DNA from: Candidatus Zixiibacteriota bacterium
GTDB lineage: Bacteria; Zixibacteria; MSB-5A5; GN15; FEB-12
Assembly (NCBI GenBank): GCA_024275255.1
Contig: JAJRZL010000164.1
Coordinates: 1 to 41,153 of the forward strand
Length of the DNA: 41,153 bases
Direction of reading: 5' to 3'
A program made the position numbers and the translations under genes. The notes under the pieces are model-generated. The model searched no databases, was not told where the DNA came from, and saw only the letters and a program-made list of their open reading frames with translations. Below are positions 11,454 to 19,996 of this stretch, one piece after another (positions within the stretch are counted from its first letter, which is position 1; each line of letters starts with the position of its first letter).

Positions 11454-12215
11454 TTACTCATCCAGTTCAAACTCGACAGTATAGGTAACCGGTACTACCA
11501 CCGGGTAACCGTTTTGAATCCCCGGACGATACCGACATTTGTATGCCGCTTCCAGTGCCGCTTCATCAAGCGATGCAATTCCCGATGAAACATACACCAT
11601 TGCCCGGATAACGCTCCCTTCTTCATCAACCACTGCCCAAATGACCACTTTCCCGGTCAACCCGGCTTGCTCTGCAAGAGACGGGTATTTCGGTTTATAT
11701 TCATATATCATCACCGGGATACGTTCCACTTTCACAAAGTCACCCGGTTGCAGTTCGCTTGCCGATAAAGGGGGAACATATTCCCCGCCTTTTCCCCTGC
11801 CCTCAGGGATTCCCAAGCCGCCGCTATCGCTGAACAAGTCATCCCATTCATTAATAACTGCCAAATCTTCCCTCGAAGCAATTTGTACATCCGGGTCAAA
11901 CAACTCCTCATCCGGAACCGGGACAGGGATTCCCACCTCGCCGGCAGGTCGTCGAATACCATTGCCAAAGTCAGGTATTTCATAGGTGATATTGATTGGA
12001 GGTGGTATTGATATCACAATCGATGTATCCAAAGAAGTATCAATTATTACTTTCTCTACATCGGGGACAACTACCTGCGACACCACCACGACCATAGCAA
12101 TGAACAACACCACAAACCCCATTCCCAGCAGCATGTGACATTGGTAAGTTGCTTTTAATTCATACGCTCCGTATGGGAGGTATAACAGATTTTTCTCCCG
12201 GTTCAACAGTACCAT
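11454..12215 (-). CDS. TonB-family energy transducer (paralog 1)
   Basis: N-terminal YLPYGAYELKATYQ then one TM segment, acidic/proline linker, C-terminal TonB domain (YPSLAEQAGLTGKVVIWAVVDEEGSVIRAMVYVSSGIASLDEAALEAAYKCRYRPGIQNGYPVVVPVTYTVEF). Confidence 0.9.
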   Translation of the reverse strand: MVLLNREKNLLYLPYGAYELKATYQCHMLLGMGFVVLFIAMVVVVSQVVVPDVEKVIIDTSLDTSIVISIPPPINITYEIPDFGNGIRRPAGEVGIPVPVPDEELFDPDVQIASREDLAVINEWDDLFSDSGGLGIPEGRGKGGEYVPPLSASELQPGDFVKVERIPVMIYEYKPKYPSLAEQAGLTGKVVIWAVVDEEGSVIRAMVYVSSGIASLDEAALEAAYKCRYRPGIQNGYPVVVPVTYTVEFELDE

Positions 12216-12305
12216 ACTTCACCCCTTCCTATGCGTATGACGATTCCAGGGTAAAAAAGTGGGGATAGCGTGCTATTCGGGGCGTGTTGAAAAAGGTATT
12301 TCGTC

Positions 12306-12348
12306 CATGTTATGATGATTTCCTCTTTGGCGGATTTACCATAACATG
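12306..12348. repeat. Inverted repeat CATGTTATG-N25-CATAACATG upstream of TonB paralog 1
   Basis: Perfect 9-bp arms at 12306-12314 and 12340-12348 in the intergenic region. Confidence 0.6.
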
Positions 12349-12553
12349 CTCAAAATAATATTTTTTACTTTATACCAGGTCAGCCCGCACAGAAAGGAAA
12401 CATAAGTCAACACTTCTTTTCCAGTCGCCCTCTCTTGCTGCCCTATATACTAAACGGATAAACAGATTTTTTGTGTAATGCGATTTCATAGATAACACTA
12501 ACCCCCCGGCACAAAAGTACATGGGGGGTTATGGGAATTTGTAAACTATATGA

Positions 12554-13288
12554 TTACTGATCCAGATCAAACTCGACTTTATAGACCACCCACACCGCAA
12601 TCGGGCGTCCGTTTTGAATAGCAGGCTTATAGATACATTTATACGCCGCCTTGACAGCAGCCTCATCAAGGGATTCTGTTCCAGATGATTTTGCCACCAT
12701 GGCTTTTTTCACAGTACCGTCTTTATCTACCAGCGCCTTGACCCACACAACTCCGGTAATACCGGCTTGTTCAGCAAGTCTCGGGTACACTGGTTTTTGC
12801 TCTTTAATCATCTGCGGTTCAACTTCGTGAGCTACGAACTCATCAGGAGCAGGGAGATAATCTTCATCCTGAATATCGACCACGATTTCACCGCCGCCAT
12901 TATCGGATGCGGTAATATCGGGAGCCACAATTTCCGCTAACTCATCACGGGTAGCCAGCACGACATCTTCATCAAGCACTTCGTCATCAGCAACCGGCTT
13001 CGGAATACCGACTTTCGGGGCAGCAACATTGGGCTGATTCACTTTTACCTGTGGTGGTTTTTTGGCGATACTCGGTGGAGGACCCAGATCGGCAACTGTT
13101 TTGATAACCACAACCGGAGCATCAGCACCTTCATTATCTCCCATTGACGAAATGACCCAAGCCGTTACGAGGATGAGTGCGACAAAGGCAGTGGTAATCA
13201 ATGTTCCCATCAGGAAATTGCGTTGGTATTTGGCTTTTAGCTCATACGCACCATAGGGTGAATAGAGTGCACTGCTTCTCACCTTCAT
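12554..13288 (-). CDS. TonB-family energy transducer (paralog 2)
   Basis: YSPYGAYELKAKYQRNFLMGTLITTAFVALILVTAWV TM start and C-terminal TonB domain (YPRLAEQAGITGVVWVKALVDKDGTVKKAMVAKSSGTESLDEAAVKAAYKCIYKPAIQNGRPIAVWVVYKVEF). Confidence 0.92.
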   Translation of the reverse strand: MKVRSSALYSPYGAYELKAKYQRNFLMGTLITTAFVALILVTAWVISSMGDNEGADAPVVVIKTVADLGPPPSIAKKPPQVKVNQPNVAAPKVGIPKPVADDEVLDEDVVLATRDELAEIVAPDITASDNGGGEIVVDIQDEDYLPAPDEFVAHEVEPQMIKEQKPVYPRLAEQAGITGVVWVKALVDKDGTVKKAMVAKSSGTESLDEAAVKAAYKCIYKPAIQNGRPIAVWVVYKVEFDLDQ

Positions 13289-13941
13289 TACGACTCACCT
13301 CTTGCAAGGGCAGCTTGTAACGCTGCGGCAATTATTCTGTCATCTTTTTCCGACCATTCACCCATCGCATAGCGATAGGAGAATTTGCCGTCTTCTTTCG
13401 TAAGTTCCGAGACTTTTTTACCCAGTTTATCCGCCAGGTATTGGTTCCACGATCGCTCAATCATATCAATCTCGTCGAGAATATTCACCATGTCCGCATA
13501 CTTTGCTTTCGGGTGAATAAGAATAAGCGTGTTCAGTTTCGGGTTTGCCCGGTTCTGCTCCATCAGAAGTCCACGCAGAGTATCGGGCCAGAACTTGTAC
13601 ACGGCCGTATCGGGCTTATCCGGTGCAGAGGGTAACAACTTGGGCAGGTTTTCAGGAGACGGGGTTCTCAGGTTCCAGAAAAAACGACCTTCTTCGTCAA
13701 CACGGATGGTCAACAGGTTCGATTCTTTCACCTCGATTTCCTGGTTCTCATCAACAGGCGGCAAGTTAATTTCCATAGCCTGGGGCATAGCAAATACCGT
13801 TGTCACCATATAGAAAATAAGCAGCAAGAAGGCGATATCCACCATCGGCGTCATGTCGATACGTATTGCAACACGACGTTTTTTTCGGCGTAATCCTTTT
13901 TTCCCGCCTTTCGGTTCCCGTTCTACTACTTCTCCAGCCAT
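13288..13941 (-). CDS. ExbD/TolR-family biopolymer transport protein (large form, 217 aa)
   Basis: RVAIRIDMTPMVDIAFLLLIFYMVTTVF signature TM/Asp; stop overlaps the TonB start. Confidence 0.9.
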   Translation of the reverse strand: MAGEVVEREPKGGKKGLRRKKRRVAIRIDMTPMVDIAFLLLIFYMVTTVFAMPQAMEINLPPVDENQEIEVKESNLLTIRVDEEGRFFWNLRTPSPENLPKLLPSAPDKPDTAVYKFWPDTLRGLLMEQNRANPKLNTLILIHPKAKYADMVNILDEIDMIERSWNQYLADKLGKKVSELTKEDGKFSYRYAMGEWSEKDDRIIAAALQAALARGES

Positions 13942-14026
13942 GTATCTATGTCACGCTCCTCTCGGATTATATCCTCTACTATTAGTACAATCAATCAGCC
14001 GTTTTATTCCAGACCAGTTCCTACAT

Positions 14027-14500
14027 TTATGTTGTTTTATCAACTTCCTTATCAGTGATAATAAGGAACCTCTGCAGGTGGTTTTCCTGCATGGATTTCA
14101 TCACATCCTGCATGACGCCAAAACTGGCTCGCCGGTCTGCTTTGATGACAATCAATGCTTTTAAGTTCTTTGCACGCGCTCGGTTAATTTCACTGGAGAC
14201 GGTATATTTATCACTCGTACGCACCACACGAACAGTGGTTGTCACGTCACGTCCTTCAATATTGATAGTCGCCTTTTCGACATAATCAACATAGATGGAA
14301 TCATATTTCGTAATCGTGATATTGATAATATCCTTATCCGGTAATTCGATTTGAGAATGCGATGTCGGTAACTCAACCGCCTTCGCTTCCGGTGGCTTGA
14401 ACTGGGTCGTCGCCATATAGAAAATCAACAGCAGAAAGGCAATATCCACCATCGGCGTCATGTCGATACGTATTGATACACGCCGTTTTTTTCCAGCCAT
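14027..14500 (-). CDS. ExbD/TolR-family biopolymer transport protein
   Basis: RVSIRIDMTPMVDIAFLLLIFYMATTQF signature and periplasmic ExbD domain. Confidence 0.92.
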   Translation of the reverse strand: MAGKKRRVSIRIDMTPMVDIAFLLLIFYMATTQFKPPEAKAVELPTSHSQIELPDKDIINITITKYDSIYVDYVEKATINIEGRDVTTTVRVVRTSDKYTVSSEINRARAKNLKALIVIKADRRASFGVMQDVMKSMQENHLQRFLIITDKEVDKTT

Positions 14501-14503
14501 CGC

Positions 14504-15262
14504 TTAGATTCCCTGTTTTGCCTTCAAAATTTGTAAAATCTCAAACGTAGCTTCATCAGTGGTATAGTTAAAGGCATCTACTTTGTTGACAAAGAAGTTA
14601 TAGTAGAAAATACCCAGAATACCAGATGTCAGCCCACCGGCAGTATTTACCAGCGCTTCGGAAATACCGGTTGCCAACTGGGTAGCATCAATAACACCAC
14701 CCTCAACATTACCGGTAGCGGCAAACGCACGAATCATGCCGATTGTCGTACCCAACAATCCTACCATCGTAGCAATCGAGGCGATCGTTGAAAGAGCAAT
14801 CAGGTTCCGCTCAAGCAGTGGTCCTTCCAGCGCATTGGCTTCTTCAATCGCAGCCTGAGTGAGCTGGATTTTCTTTTCCGGATCATAAGCAGGGTTGTCT
14901 TTTACTTCCCGATACCGTTCAATACCGGCACGCAATACGTTAGCAGTAGTGCCACGCTGTTTGTCACATGCAGCCAACGCACCATCATAGTCATCATTTT
15001 GAATCAAGGTAACCAGTTTTTTGAAAAATACCTGGACAGAGCCTTTTCCTTTCGCTACCCGGTACAGAGACAAATAACGCTCAATCACGAATACGATAAG
15101 CATTACCAGAATCATGATAAGCAATACAACCAACGGTCCACCTTTGTAAATGGAGTGAACAATTGGATTTTCCGATGTACGGAATACTCCATACCACAGA
15201 CCAAATCCGATAGCAAAAGCTACGATTGCGTTAAGCGCTACAAAGATCGTCTGTTTAACCAC
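14504..15262 (-). CDS. MotA/TolQ/ExbB proton channel family protein
   Basis: LLERNLIALSTIASIATMVGLLGTTIGMIRAF...TQLATGISEALVNTAGGLTSGILGIFYYNFFVNKVD; GGAGG upstream of GTG start. Confidence 0.93.
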   Translation of the reverse strand: MVKQTIFVALNAIVAFAIGFGLWYGVFRTSENPIVHSIYKGGPLVVLLIMILVMLIVFVIERYLSLYRVAKGKGSVQVFFKKLVTLIQNDDYDGALAACDKQRGTTANVLRAGIERYREVKDNPAYDPEKKIQLTQAAIEEANALEGPLLERNLIALSTIASIATMVGLLGTTIGMIRAFAATGNVEGGVIDATQLATGISEALVNTAGGLTSGILGIFYYNFFVNKVDAFNYTTDEATFEILQILKAKQGI

Positions 15263-15309
15263 TTGAAGAGTCCTCCAACTTAAAATATATCAACAACATT
15301 TCTATTCAC

Positions 15310-16335
15310 TTATATCTCAGAACCTTTGGCAGCCACCAGAATAAACGCTGCCAATGAAATAATTACTCCCCATGAGAGCGAATCAAGAAACACACCCACA
15401 TTGTATCCATCGCCAAGGCTGGAATACATTGTTGCAGCATCGAAGCTATAGTCTCCACCAAAGAACGACAGCACCAACGCCACGACAAACAGAATCAACG
15501 GAATCCAGTTATACCGTAAAATCTTTTTCAGTTTCAACACCCGCTCATCAGGGTCGCCTTTGCCGCCATATAACCCGATTAAGGTGTAAATTGGCAGGGC
15601 AATACAAAGCAGGATGTATACAAGAAAGACAATAACTGTCAGCAACAGGGCAAAACCGGAGGAAAAAACATACGAGCCCAGAGAACCGATAGATATGATT
15701 GCTCCAATTGCCGAAACACGGTCATACTCTTTATAGTATTTCTTTTTGGCAACATATCCATGAATGATTTCTTCGGTAACCCCCTGCTTTTCGCTTGTAA
15801 CACTTGCTCTTCCTCCACTACCGGTTGTAGCAGCGGCAGCCATGGCGGCAGTATCAACGGGAGCTGCTTCCTGTTGTGCTCCTGCTGTTGTGGTATCAAG
15901 AGCAGAGCCCATAACTGCGGCAAGGCTATCGGTAAGTGAATCCGCCGGTGTCGCCGCAACCATGGCACTGTCAGCCGGGGTTTCCGTTATCTTTGCCGTT
16001 TCTTCTATCTCATTATAGACAGCAAACCAGGGCATAAACAATGACGCAAAAATAACAACACATGCTATCGAGAGAACGATTTTATCAATTAACGTTACCC
16101 GTTCCTCAAGCAGTGTACACTCTTCTCGTATCTTTGCGCCTTTTTTACGTCGTTCAATTACTGAATCAACCCATTTTTTCTTCTCAGCTTCCGACTTGAA
16201 GAGATCCTTGGGTTTGCCCGGGAACACCTCAAAGCCGATATAATGAAACCGCTCATCTTCGGAAATATTCCGCTTTATTTCCGTCTTTTTCTCGGCTTTT
16301 GTTGCGGTGTTGCTATTCTTTTCTTTATCAGGCAT
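15310..16335 (-). CDS. Multi-pass membrane protein of unknown function in the ExbB/ExbD/TonB cluster
   Basis: ORF with AGGAG upstream of ATG, about four hydrophobic segments and a long Ala/Thr/Asp-rich loop; co-directional with exbB. Confidence 0.8.
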   Translation of the reverse strand: MPDKEKNSNTATKAEKKTEIKRNISEDERFHYIGFEVFPGKPKDLFKSEAEKKKWVDSVIERRKKGAKIREECTLLEERVTLIDKIVLSIACVVIFASLFMPWFAVYNEIEETAKITETPADSAMVAATPADSLTDSLAAVMGSALDTTTAGAQQEAAPVDTAAMAAAATTGSGGRASVTSEKQGVTEEIIHGYVAKKKYYKEYDRVSAIGAIISIGSLGSYVFSSGFALLLTVIVFLVYILLCIALPIYTLIGLYGGKGDPDERVLKLKKILRYNWIPLILFVVALVLSFFGGDYSFDAATMYSSLGDGYNVGVFLDSLSWGVIISLAAFILVAAKGSEI

Positions 16336-16376
16336 CCAGTCTCCTGTAATGATATATATAAACGTGTTCGTTGAAC

Positions 16377-18275
16377 TTAGAACTCATATTCGGTATCATC
16401 CCGCCCTTTAAGGCACTCTTGGTTTGTAGGATCACATTTAATACATTTTTTATACCATGTGTTGGCATTCTTGAAGTCGTCCTTCTGAGCCAGTTTCTTA
16501 TCCACTGCCCGTAAATGATAACACTGGGCAATCCAAAGTACAAGAGCAGGGTCGTCTGCGCAAGGTCCGGAATTATCTTTTTGCAGGCAGGAGTATGCTT
16601 TTTTCAGATATTTCAAGGCTTTTGTATAATTTTTATTACAAATCCCGCCGAAATAAGCATATCCAAGCGATTTCAACGCATCACAGCTATTCGGGTCAAC
16701 GGTAAGTGCCTGCTCGTAATATTTCACCCCTTTGGCACAATCAGTAAGCTGGTACAGGTAAGTATTCGCAACCATCAATATTGCCTTGAGGTCATTTGGT
16801 TTGAACTGCAAATACTGATCCATAAATTCGGCAGCTTCCTTGAACAGTTCTTCCGGTTCAGCGGCAGTTTCACCACTACCTTCATCAAGCTCATCCCCAA
16901 GGTCACCCTCACCGGCATTATCGCTGGCACCGTTTGCCAGGTTCAAAGCGGCATAGCTGGCATTTTTAAAAATCGAAGCGTTGGTGGAGTCAATACCCAT
17001 CTCGATTCTTTTCTTATAGTACTCAAGCGCCTGGGCATAGCTCTGCATGGAGTGGTAGGCAACTGCGATATTCTGCAATACCCGCTTCTGATTGGGATTC
17101 ACTTCCAGCGACTTTTTATAATACGTGACCGCTGTCGCATAATCTCTTCCCGGTTTTCGATAGTAGTAACTGTATCCCAGCAAACGGTATAGCTCTGCTT
17201 TGCTGACACGGGACTTGTAATTCTCATCCTGTTGAGCCGCCCATTCAATATGCTTTTTCAGCATCTCAGCAGCTTTTTCATACTGCTTGGTCCAAAACAG
17301 CGACTTGCCGTAGTAAAAATAGATATCTTTCGGTACGTATGGAATAGAAAGCACTTTTTCAAAATAGTTGGCAGCTTCTTCAAAACCGGAGAGATTGACA
17401 TAAGACATTGCCAGTTCAAAAAATACCCGCACATGAGCAGAATCCGGCTGGGCGTTGGAAAGCTCCAGATACCGACGATACGAACCGATTGTCTCCTTGA
17501 AACGCTCTACCCGGTCTTTCCCGCGCGCCGAAAGAGCAGCTTTGAAATATATTTCACCCGCTCTTCTCCATGCCGGGGCATGAGTGCTGTCCTTGGACAA
17601 GACAGTACGCAGCTTTTCAAGAGCGCAGTTATAATCCCGCATTTCAAGACAGGCTTCCGCCCAGTGGAAATAAACCTCAAGACTTGCAGTATCTATCTGC
17701 AAAGCTTTTTCATACTCGGATATCGCCAGCGATGGCACCCCGCCATAAAAATTGGCATCGCCAAGGTTAATATGGTACTCAGCATTATCGGGATCACCAA
17801 TGAGTGCTTGTCGGAAAGCCAGGTCCGCTTCCTGGTATTTCCCCTTTTCCATCATAACCAGCCCGTAGCCATTTTCGAACATGTATTTCATGTCCTTTTT
17901 GGCTTTTTTCCTGCCTTTTTCCATCACTTTCTCGGCTTCGTCAATCTCACCTAACTTCAGGTAGCACAAGCCAAGATAGTATAACGACTCATAATGTTTT
18001 TTCTTCTTTTTCAGAGCTTTCTGAAACTGGTCACGTGCTTTTTCATACTCGCCTTGATTGTAATAAATCCTGCCGAGCATGTAGTAGTTATAATGGTATG
18101 ATTTATCCAACTCGATTTCCTGTTGGAGCAGGCTAATCGCTTTGGTGGTGTCACCAGCTTTCAGGGCATCGGCTATGGTTTGCTTTAATTCTTCGGCTTG
18201 CAGCACTGAAAATATCATTACTATTACCAGCGCACATAATCCAAATACTCGTGTTGTCGTTCGTTTCATCTTCAT
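16377..18275 (-). CDS. Tetratricopeptide-repeat protein (periplasmic or secreted)
   Basis: Signal peptide MKMKRTTTRVFGLCALVIVMIFSVLQAEE; many TPR units (e.g. YNYYMLGRIYYNQGEYEKARDQFQKALKKKKKHYESLYYLGLCYLKLGEIDEAEKVMEKG). Confidence 0.92.
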   Translation of the reverse strand: MKMKRTTTRVFGLCALVIVMIFSVLQAEELKQTIADALKAGDTTKAISLLQQEIELDKSYHYNYYMLGRIYYNQGEYEKARDQFQKALKKKKKHYESLYYLGLCYLKLGEIDEAEKVMEKGRKKAKKDMKYMFENGYGLVMMEKGKYQEADLAFRQALIGDPDNAEYHINLGDANFYGGVPSLAISEYEKALQIDTASLEVYFHWAEACLEMRDYNCALEKLRTVLSKDSTHAPAWRRAGEIYFKAALSARGKDRVERFKETIGSYRRYLELSNAQPDSAHVRVFFELAMSYVNLSGFEEAANYFEKVLSIPYVPKDIYFYYGKSLFWTKQYEKAAEMLKKHIEWAAQQDENYKSRVSKAELYRLLGYSYYYRKPGRDYATAVTYYKKSLEVNPNQKRVLQNIAVAYHSMQSYAQALEYYKKRIEMGIDSTNASIFKNASYAALNLANGASDNAGEGDLGDELDEGSGETAAEPEELFKEAAEFMDQYLQFKPNDLKAILMVANTYLYQLTDCAKGVKYYEQALTVDPNSCDALKSLGYAYFGGICNKNYTKALKYLKKAYSCLQKDNSGPCADDPALVLWIAQCYHLRAVDKKLAQKDDFKNANTWYKKCIKCDPTNQECLKGRDDTEYEF

Positions 18276-18392: not shown

Positions 18393-18578
18393 TTACGTTT
18401 CCTGAACAGCAGCGGTGCATTGTTCCACTCGTAAGAAAAAATATAACAAGGTGACAACAGCCACAATCAGCCGAATCGTCGGTGATAATACCGAGGTAAA
18501 ACCTATCTGAATGTACAATCCTGTCAAAAGCATAATCACCGCCGAAAATAAGTTCAACAAACGGGTAATTATTTCCAT
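18393..18578 (-). CDS. Small membrane protein (61 aa)
   Basis: MEIITRLLNLFSAVIMLLTGLYIQIGFTSVLSPTIRLIVAVVTLLYFFLRVEQC, two hydrophobic segments; GGGAGG 10-14 nt upstream of ATG at 18578 (the longer 18758 ORF start is not supported). Confidence 0.65.
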   Translation of the reverse strand: MEIITRLLNLFSAVIMLLTGLYIQIGFTSVLSPTIRLIVAVVTLLYFFLRVEQCTAAVQET

Positions 18579-18769: not shown

Positions 18770-18798
18770 TGGAGAAAAAAATAAACGCAGAACCTGCG
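18770..18798 (-). terminator. Putative terminator for the triple TonB-C-like gene
   Basis: Minus strand CGCAG-GTT-CTGCG followed by TTTATTTTTTTCTCC. Confidence 0.55.
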
Positions 18799-18889
18799 CC
18801 ACCTGAATTGGTCTATTTTTCAAGAATATGGATGCTATGGTATTATATACGTATGACTTATACGAAAAACAGGATAAAAACGAGATTTA

Positions 18890-19996
18890 TCACCATTTAT
18901 AATCTATTCGTATCTTTCCACTACTTATGAATATGATATTAGTTAGTCCGCCATAAGAGACTGGTTGTCCATCATACGTTATGGCAGGATAAAAAAGCAT
19001 TTGCTGCTTCAAATCTCGTATTATTTGACGATGTGCTTTATCCAGTTTACTGAAACGTCTAATCTCAACCTGTTCCGATGAATCCACCACGATAAAGGCA
19101 CTGATAGTGTCATGATAAAACATTCTCCTGTTTATCACCTGGTACACATCACCGGGTAATTTACGCGGCAATGGTTTCTGCATCAATCCCACCGTGTCAG
19201 GAATAAGTTGCACCCGGGCTTGTTCTAATGGTGACAAGGAATTAATCCGCTCCGCTATCCACGGTGTTGTGGGGTAATCAAGCTGAGGAAAATACGACAC
19301 AAGCAGGAAACAGGTCGATGCTACCGGCTGGTTGTTAACAGTTGCCGGTTGGTATTCCGCCCACAGGGAAGCGGACTTGGTTGTTTGAGTGTATGACGGT
19401 AATGTGGAGCGAACTTTCTGTACATCAGTCGGCTTTCCCTCTTTATCAAGCTGAAGCTTCAACAGTACAAACGGATATATGCTGCTGGAATCAATCGCTT
19501 TCCTGTTACAGAAATACTTGGGAAACATCACCAGTTTTGGAGGGTTTATATTATTCAAGTCGTACGCATAAAAATATAGTCCCCGGTCTTTTATCTCCCC
19601 AAGGGAATCGACCGGAAAAACAAAGGCGGGATATTTTCGTGCCGGCTGAAACGTTATGATAACCGGCAACCGGGCGTTTGTTTTTTTGCCGTTCATGGCA
19701 GCCGGCGTAAAATGTACCGAACGGAGATACGGCTCAACATATTGAGCAAATCGTGTATCCTGACTGTCTGCTGGTTGTACCTGTTCCGGGACACCTGAGT
19801 TATTGATAGCAATAATCATGGTGACTTGTCGTTCATACGTTGTGTAGGGCGGGTTTGACGGTGGGGTAAACCGGTACGGCATGTTATCCGGTACGGGCAA
19901 CACGAAACCAAAATACGACGGCAGTTCCCCTGCATATCCAAATGAGAGAGCACTGAGGAAAATAATACCTGTCAGTATCCAACAATATCGTCTCAT
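18890..19996 (-). CDS. Signal-peptide protein with three TonB-C-terminal-like repeats
   Basis: Signal peptide MRRYCWILTGIIFLSALSFGYAG (start refined to 19996); three segments resembling the TonB_C pattern (see findings). Confidence 0.75.
   Translation of the reverse strand: MRRYCWILTGIIFLSALSFGYAGELPSYFGFVLPVPDNMPYRFTPPSNPPYTTYERQVTMIIAINNSGVPEQVQPADSQDTRFAQYVEPYLRSVHFTPAAMNGKKTNARLPVIITFQPARKYPAFVFPVDSLGEIKDRGLYFYAYDLNNINPPKLVMFPKYFCNRKAIDSSSIYPFVLLKLQLDKEGKPTDVQKVRSTLPSYTQTTKSASLWAEYQPATVNNQPVASTCFLLVSYFPQLDYPTTPWIAERINSLSPLEQARVQLIPDTVGLMQKPLPRKLPGDVYQVINRRMFYHDTISAFIVVDSSEQVEIRRFSKLDKAHRQIIRDLKQQMLFYPAITYDGQPVSYGGLTNIIFISSGKIRIDYKW

Follow-up and report, generated by a model that had tools for sequence, protein, structure and literature searches.

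The C-terminal domain of TonB is known as the working end of a motor, which uses it to grip outer-membrane receptors. This domain and its counterpart in TolA bind targets by beta-strand addition to the edge of a sheet, and the C-terminal domain of TolA (domain III) is structurally homologous to that of TonB (PMC12204202). No description of tandem or soluble TonB_C proteins was found in the open-access literature that we searched. Here, we describe an exported protein with three TonB-C domains that is encoded beside a Ton cluster in a 41,153-nucleotide stretch of DNA (the window) from a Candidatus Zixiibacteriota genome. The gene lies at 18890 to 19996 on the minus strand (stop codon included) and encodes 368 aa from an ATG start, and a longer GTG-start frame reaches 20104.

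The protein is made up of three TonB-C-type beta-beta-alpha-beta domains joined by conserved linkers. Scored as a whole protein, it matched Pfam TonB_C (PF03544) in two stretches at 32.5 bits (E = 1.2e-7; cut-off, 24.6 bits). Domain 1 (residues 56 to 116; 19649 to 19831, minus strand) corresponds to the Pfam match at residues 57 to 117, and domain 2 (residues 176 to 234; 19295 to 19471, minus strand) to a weak HMMER match at 19313 to 19468. The degenerate, TonB_C-like domain 3 (residues 297 to 357; 18926 to 19108, minus strand) had no HMMER match and, among the sequence comparisons, was detected by the profile-profile method only. Since domains 1 and 2 each fell below the TonB_C cut-off when taken alone (HMMER, six-frame search) and domain 3 was invisible, the sequence evidence from this single protein is modest. 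The NCBIfam model tonB_Cterm scored 19.1 bits on the window protein, under its cut-off, and 34 of the 65 aligned family members matched TonB_C individually.

For the profile-profile comparison, the 65-sequence alignment of the family was split at the proposed domain boundaries, and the resulting profiles were compared with the TonBs of the neighboring clusters. Domains 1, 2, and 3 scored 41.4, 42.1, and 30.5, respectively (probabilities of 95.9, 95.3, and 86.4%), compared with 14.0 and 10.5 for the two linkers (2.6 and 0.5%). As controls, 60 column shuffles per domain averaged ~10 with a maximum of 16.1 (15.7 for domain 3), and reversed domain profiles scored 8 to 9. A sliding 70-residue scan gave exactly three peaks, at residues 46 to 116, 166 to 236, and 271 to 356. 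The domains also matched one another (domains 1 and 2, 97.3%; domains 1 and 3, 96.8%; domains 2 and 3, 87.3%), and their simplest origin would therefore be internal triplication. Identity of the domain sequences to TonB was 14 to 26%.

The AlphaFold2 model (65 rows) had a mean pLDDT of 93.8 and a pTM of 0.88 and was ordered throughout, with no residue under pLDDT 50. The strand-strand-helix-strand order was present at residues 56 to 116, 176 to 234, and 297 to 357. In a Foldseek search against the PDB, every match at a probability of ≥0.6 was to the C-terminal domain of TonB or of the TonB homologue FusB, 6i97_D (probability, 1.00; E = 0.006) and 1xx3 (probability, 0.99) among them; no match passed an E value of 0.001. 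TonBs also ranked first when PDB sequences were searched with the family profile hidden Markov model (2k9k; E = 0.0025). Matches to apolipoprotein E in the PDB were set aside as chance (E = 0.38 and worse). Pfam, profile-profile comparison, AlphaFold2, and Foldseek agree with the initial annotation, which had read the gene from its letters as encoding an exported protein with three tandem TonB-C domains; structure prediction, proposed there as a check on that reading, returned three repeated TonB-C folds.

The N terminus is a short, cleavable-type signal without His (residues ~1 to 23; 19926 to 19996, minus strand), with the hydrophobic core ILTGIIFLSALS and an A-x-A-like end (GYA). It is not lipidated in the window genome, forms a helix at residues 2 to 17 in the AlphaFold2 model, and offers no TonB-type transmembrane helix that could dock to ExbB/ExbD. 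A hydropathy scan of the window protein found nothing transmembrane-like after this N-terminal hydrophobic stretch. The highest 19-residue value beyond the signal peptide was 0.83, in line with the earlier view that the N terminus is only a signal peptide and lacks an energizer helix. The first domain starts ~33 residues beyond the signal peptide, and neither the sequence nor the model contains a proline-rich or disordered spacer that could span the periplasm.

In eight relatives, the signal ends in a lipobox-like motif, e.g., LAGCGGPP (L025, L036, L037, L038, L042, L045, L049, and L050). These members were read by eye; an automatic pattern picked out five of them along with L021 and L074, which were judged false. 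A single supported clade (99/82) contains all eight, plus one member without a lipobox. In Escherichia coli, lipoproteins without Asp after the Cys are sorted to the outer membrane. Asp is absent after the lipobox Cys in the lipoprotein-type relatives, and sorting to the outer membrane would be expected if the E. coli rule extends to Zixiibacteriota. The lipoprotein-type N termini of this one clade suggest an envelope protein that can be tethered to a membrane. The family is thus most likely envelope located, with tethering in one lineage.

The genes that follow in the window all lie on the minus strand. An unannotated gene for a small, two-helix membrane protein of 61 aa (18393 to 18578; no Pfam match with a query that carried one extra residue) sits between the triple-domain gene and a gene for an exported tetratricopeptide repeat (TPR) protein (16377 to 18275), which opens the series of long genes in the Ton cluster. 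Next come w09, a conserved membrane protein of the cluster with no Pfam family (15310 to 16335), ExbB (14504 to 15262; PF01618), two ExbDs (14027 to 14500 and 13288 to 13941; both PF02472), and two TonBs (12554 to 13288 and 11454 to 12215; PF03544 at 72 and 58.3 bits, respectively). Across the class, the order TPR-w09-ExbB-ExbD-ExbD-TonB found at 11454 to 18275 of the window is conserved.

These Pfam matches confirm the neighboring TonB, ExbD, and ExbB genes named in the initial annotation, and the co-occurrence of gene and cluster in relatives, which it suggested testing, was borne out as well. Of 68 genomes, from four families, in which the position could be tested, 66 have the TPR gene as the next long same-strand gene after the triple-domain gene, followed in order by w09, ExbB, ExbD, ExbD, and TonB where the contig continues (counted by hand with L070 included; five more genomes carry the gene too close to a contig end for this test). 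The exceptions, G027 and G075, are single-contig genomes in which the gene lies far from ExbB. The ExbB match in G027 (C1:243216-243539) spans only residues 145 to 252 in a 182-aa frame, and this ExbB may be broken or misassembled.

The gap between the triple-domain and TPR genes ranges from 380 to 1,599 bp (median, 540 bp), and 55 of 65 such gaps hold a homologue of the small two-helix membrane protein. In the window, a terminator-like hairpin with a T run is located at 18784 to 18800 (minus strand), ~90 bases past the stop codon of the triple-domain gene. A terminator conserved after this gene was rejected as a general feature (5 of 65 loci versus 10 of 325 shuffles), and no Rfam family was found in the region of the gene. 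Given a gap of ~500 bp that holds a small gene, and the terminator-like hairpin of the window, cotranscription with the Ton cluster is doubtful. A flippase-like gene is a frequent neighbor on the other side. One alternative is an envelope protein whose role has nothing to do with Ton, its gene being held in place by slow gene rearrangement. The hairpin of its own and the gap before the next gene would fit such a protein, as would loss without loss of the cluster (see below), detachment in two genomes, and the flippase-like gene as a second frequent neighbor. However, a position kept in 66 of the 68 genomes of four families and domains of the same type as those of the cluster TonBs make an unrelated job rather unlikely.

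A nearest-genome search gave matches to the protein in 72 of 99 genomes, mostly near full length. In the order of the window genome (Candidatus Zixiibacteriota), it is near-universal (73 of 81 genomes) and normally single copy, and 52 additional genomes of the class gave no match at an E-value threshold of 1e-6. Relatives have drifted to 15 to 41% identity. In the tree, families f2, f3, and f4 each occupy their own clade, as expected from vertical descent, and on these sequences the gene was inherited vertically within one order of Zixibacteria. The copy in G031 (L076:7290-8390, minus strand) is split into two frames by a TAA stop, from either decay or assembly error.

Five genomes that lack the gene (G029, G041, G047, G051, and G080) still carry the TPR gene and the gene for the small membrane protein, and further cluster genes follow as far as they can be read (only w09 in G051); in the other three genomes without it, contig ends or low completeness prevent a reading of cluster retention. 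At least two losses of the gene (in genus g30 and in G080) left the cluster in place. In addition, all seven genomes of other orders that were inspected have the core Ton cluster without the triple-domain gene; these clusters gave weaker matches in the same gene order, and one was stopped early by a contig end. Receptor numbers, counted as Plug domains, were 8 to 9 in g30, which lacks the gene, versus 6 to 11 in members of its family that carry it, and no link between these counts and presence of the gene was found. The window genome itself has six Plug-bearing receptors. Because the Ton cluster exists class-wide without the protein and persists after its loss, the protein is, on gene content, an accessory that the Ton machine can do without. 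Taken with the similar receptor counts, this pattern shows an older Ton cluster to which the protein was added at the level of the order. Its nearly order-wide position beside the Ton motor genes makes it probably an extra, lineage-specific helper of the Ton machine.

Our preferred reading, which we advance tentatively and as somewhat short of probable, is that this helper serves the Ton machine as a passive (unpowered) adaptor that binds strands multivalently. We infer this function from the three TonB-C domains, the lack of a motor helix, the envelope location, and the steady linkage to the Ton cluster. A single soluble or lipid-tethered protein that bears three TonB-C modules would grip several extended peptides simultaneously, and candidate ligands are the N-terminal segments of receptors, the TonB linker, or a TPR-protein partner. 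Acting on the periplasmic side of the outer membrane, the protein might gather receptors or present them to the proton-driven TonB encoded next door. The fuller picture of an order-specific, three-headed, unpowered Ton accessory, soluble or lipid tethered, that picks up peptides of receptors or of TonB in the periplasm is possible but more likely wrong than right. Weighing against an adaptor are the existence of the cluster without it, the unchanged receptor counts, the location of the gene elsewhere in two single-contig genomes, the doubtful cotranscription, and the possible capping of the domain 3 edge in the model (see below).

A gripping domain that is present without a motor anchor could also serve as a decoy or brake, occupying the TonB boxes of receptors in competition with TonB and so limiting uptake. 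Yet a near-universal, normally single-copy gene would make a strange brake, receptor counts stay the same where it is lost, and the domains are far from TonB in sequence (14 to 26% identity), all of which leave such competition improbable.

Conservation along the protein bears on how its domains may be used. Among the 65 aligned relatives, which have the three-domain architecture in common, G68 and P337 are invariant, and G187, G308, P217, and F96 are nearly so; the glycine and the proline occupy an equivalent position in each repeat, and the TonB-C signature positions are conserved in all repeats. At residue 308, the glycine of domain 3, 64 of the 65 sequences have Gly, and the window copy alone has Glu. 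A nearly invariant Trp in the C-terminal region was considered as an outer-membrane beta-signal and rejected because many relatives extend beyond it. The linkers contain many of the most conserved residues of the protein (P128, N148, P153, P159, Y241, P242, and P277). In the AlphaFold2 model, an extra strand (residues 361 to 366) directly follows beta-3 of domain 3 and, judged from strand order alone, may cap the binding edge of this domain.

Linker conservation and possible self-capping of domain 3 make a brace or assembly factor nearly as good a reading as an adaptor. Its degenerate domains would no longer bind strands, its linkers would be the working surface, and it would scaffold those components of the Ton cluster that sit in the envelope, e.g., w09 or the TPR protein, whose gene is its constant neighbor. 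But the signature positions of TonB-C are conserved in each repeat and domains 1 and 2 still give TonB_C matches, and we regard a brace as possible but less likely than not. The lipoprotein-type relatives are consistent with an envelope-anchored adaptor or brace. If the adaptor reading is true, a passive adaptor sits between motor and receptors in the outer-membrane energization of Zixibacteria, which would help explain how a few TonBs serve several receptors. More generally, conservation of the protein implies that the TonB-C domain also works by itself as a module of the envelope and that unpowered accessories can belong to Ton machines. This is a defined protein with natural lipid-anchored versions, suited to in vitro study.

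In comparison with known systems, the protein has the fold and sequence signature of the TonB C-terminal domain (PF03544; PDB 1xx3, 6i97, and 1u07). Unlike TonB, it has three C-terminal-type domains and neither a transmembrane helix nor a proline-rich spacer; its identity to TonB_C is low, with domain 3 below HMMER detection. It differs from TolA in having no transmembrane helix or helical domain II, and no NCBIfam TolA family, including tolA_full, matched it. The MxcH receptor family (NF038079), with an N-terminal TonB_C-like domain, matched it through the part containing TonB_C at 32.4 bits (cut-off, 925) and likewise carries a TonB_C-type domain outside an energy transducer. However, MxcH is a receptor of ~790 residues, whereas the 368-aa protein ends after domain 3 without a barrel and had no Plug or barrel match in Pfam or NCBIfam.

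Other exported proteins with repeated TonB_C domains are encoded in genus g12 of the same order. One, of 584 aa (L249:3457-5211, minus strand), begins with a signal-peptide-like segment and carries five TonB_C domains in a single frame. Three more, of 236 to 272 aa, have two TonB_C domains each (L250:1392-2210, L250:2372-3136, and L251:1639-2349, plus strand), and their genes adjoin a signal-peptidase-like gene. These proteins share a signal-peptide-like N terminus and repeated TonB_C domains with the triple-domain protein, a likeness of architecture; they are nearer to canonical TonB_C, were found here in g12 only, and lie away from the Ton cluster. With two- and five-domain examples in g12, exported tandem TonB_C proteins are a kind not unique to this family. 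The novelty lies in a degenerate three-domain family that is conserved and whose gene keeps its place next to the Ton cluster.
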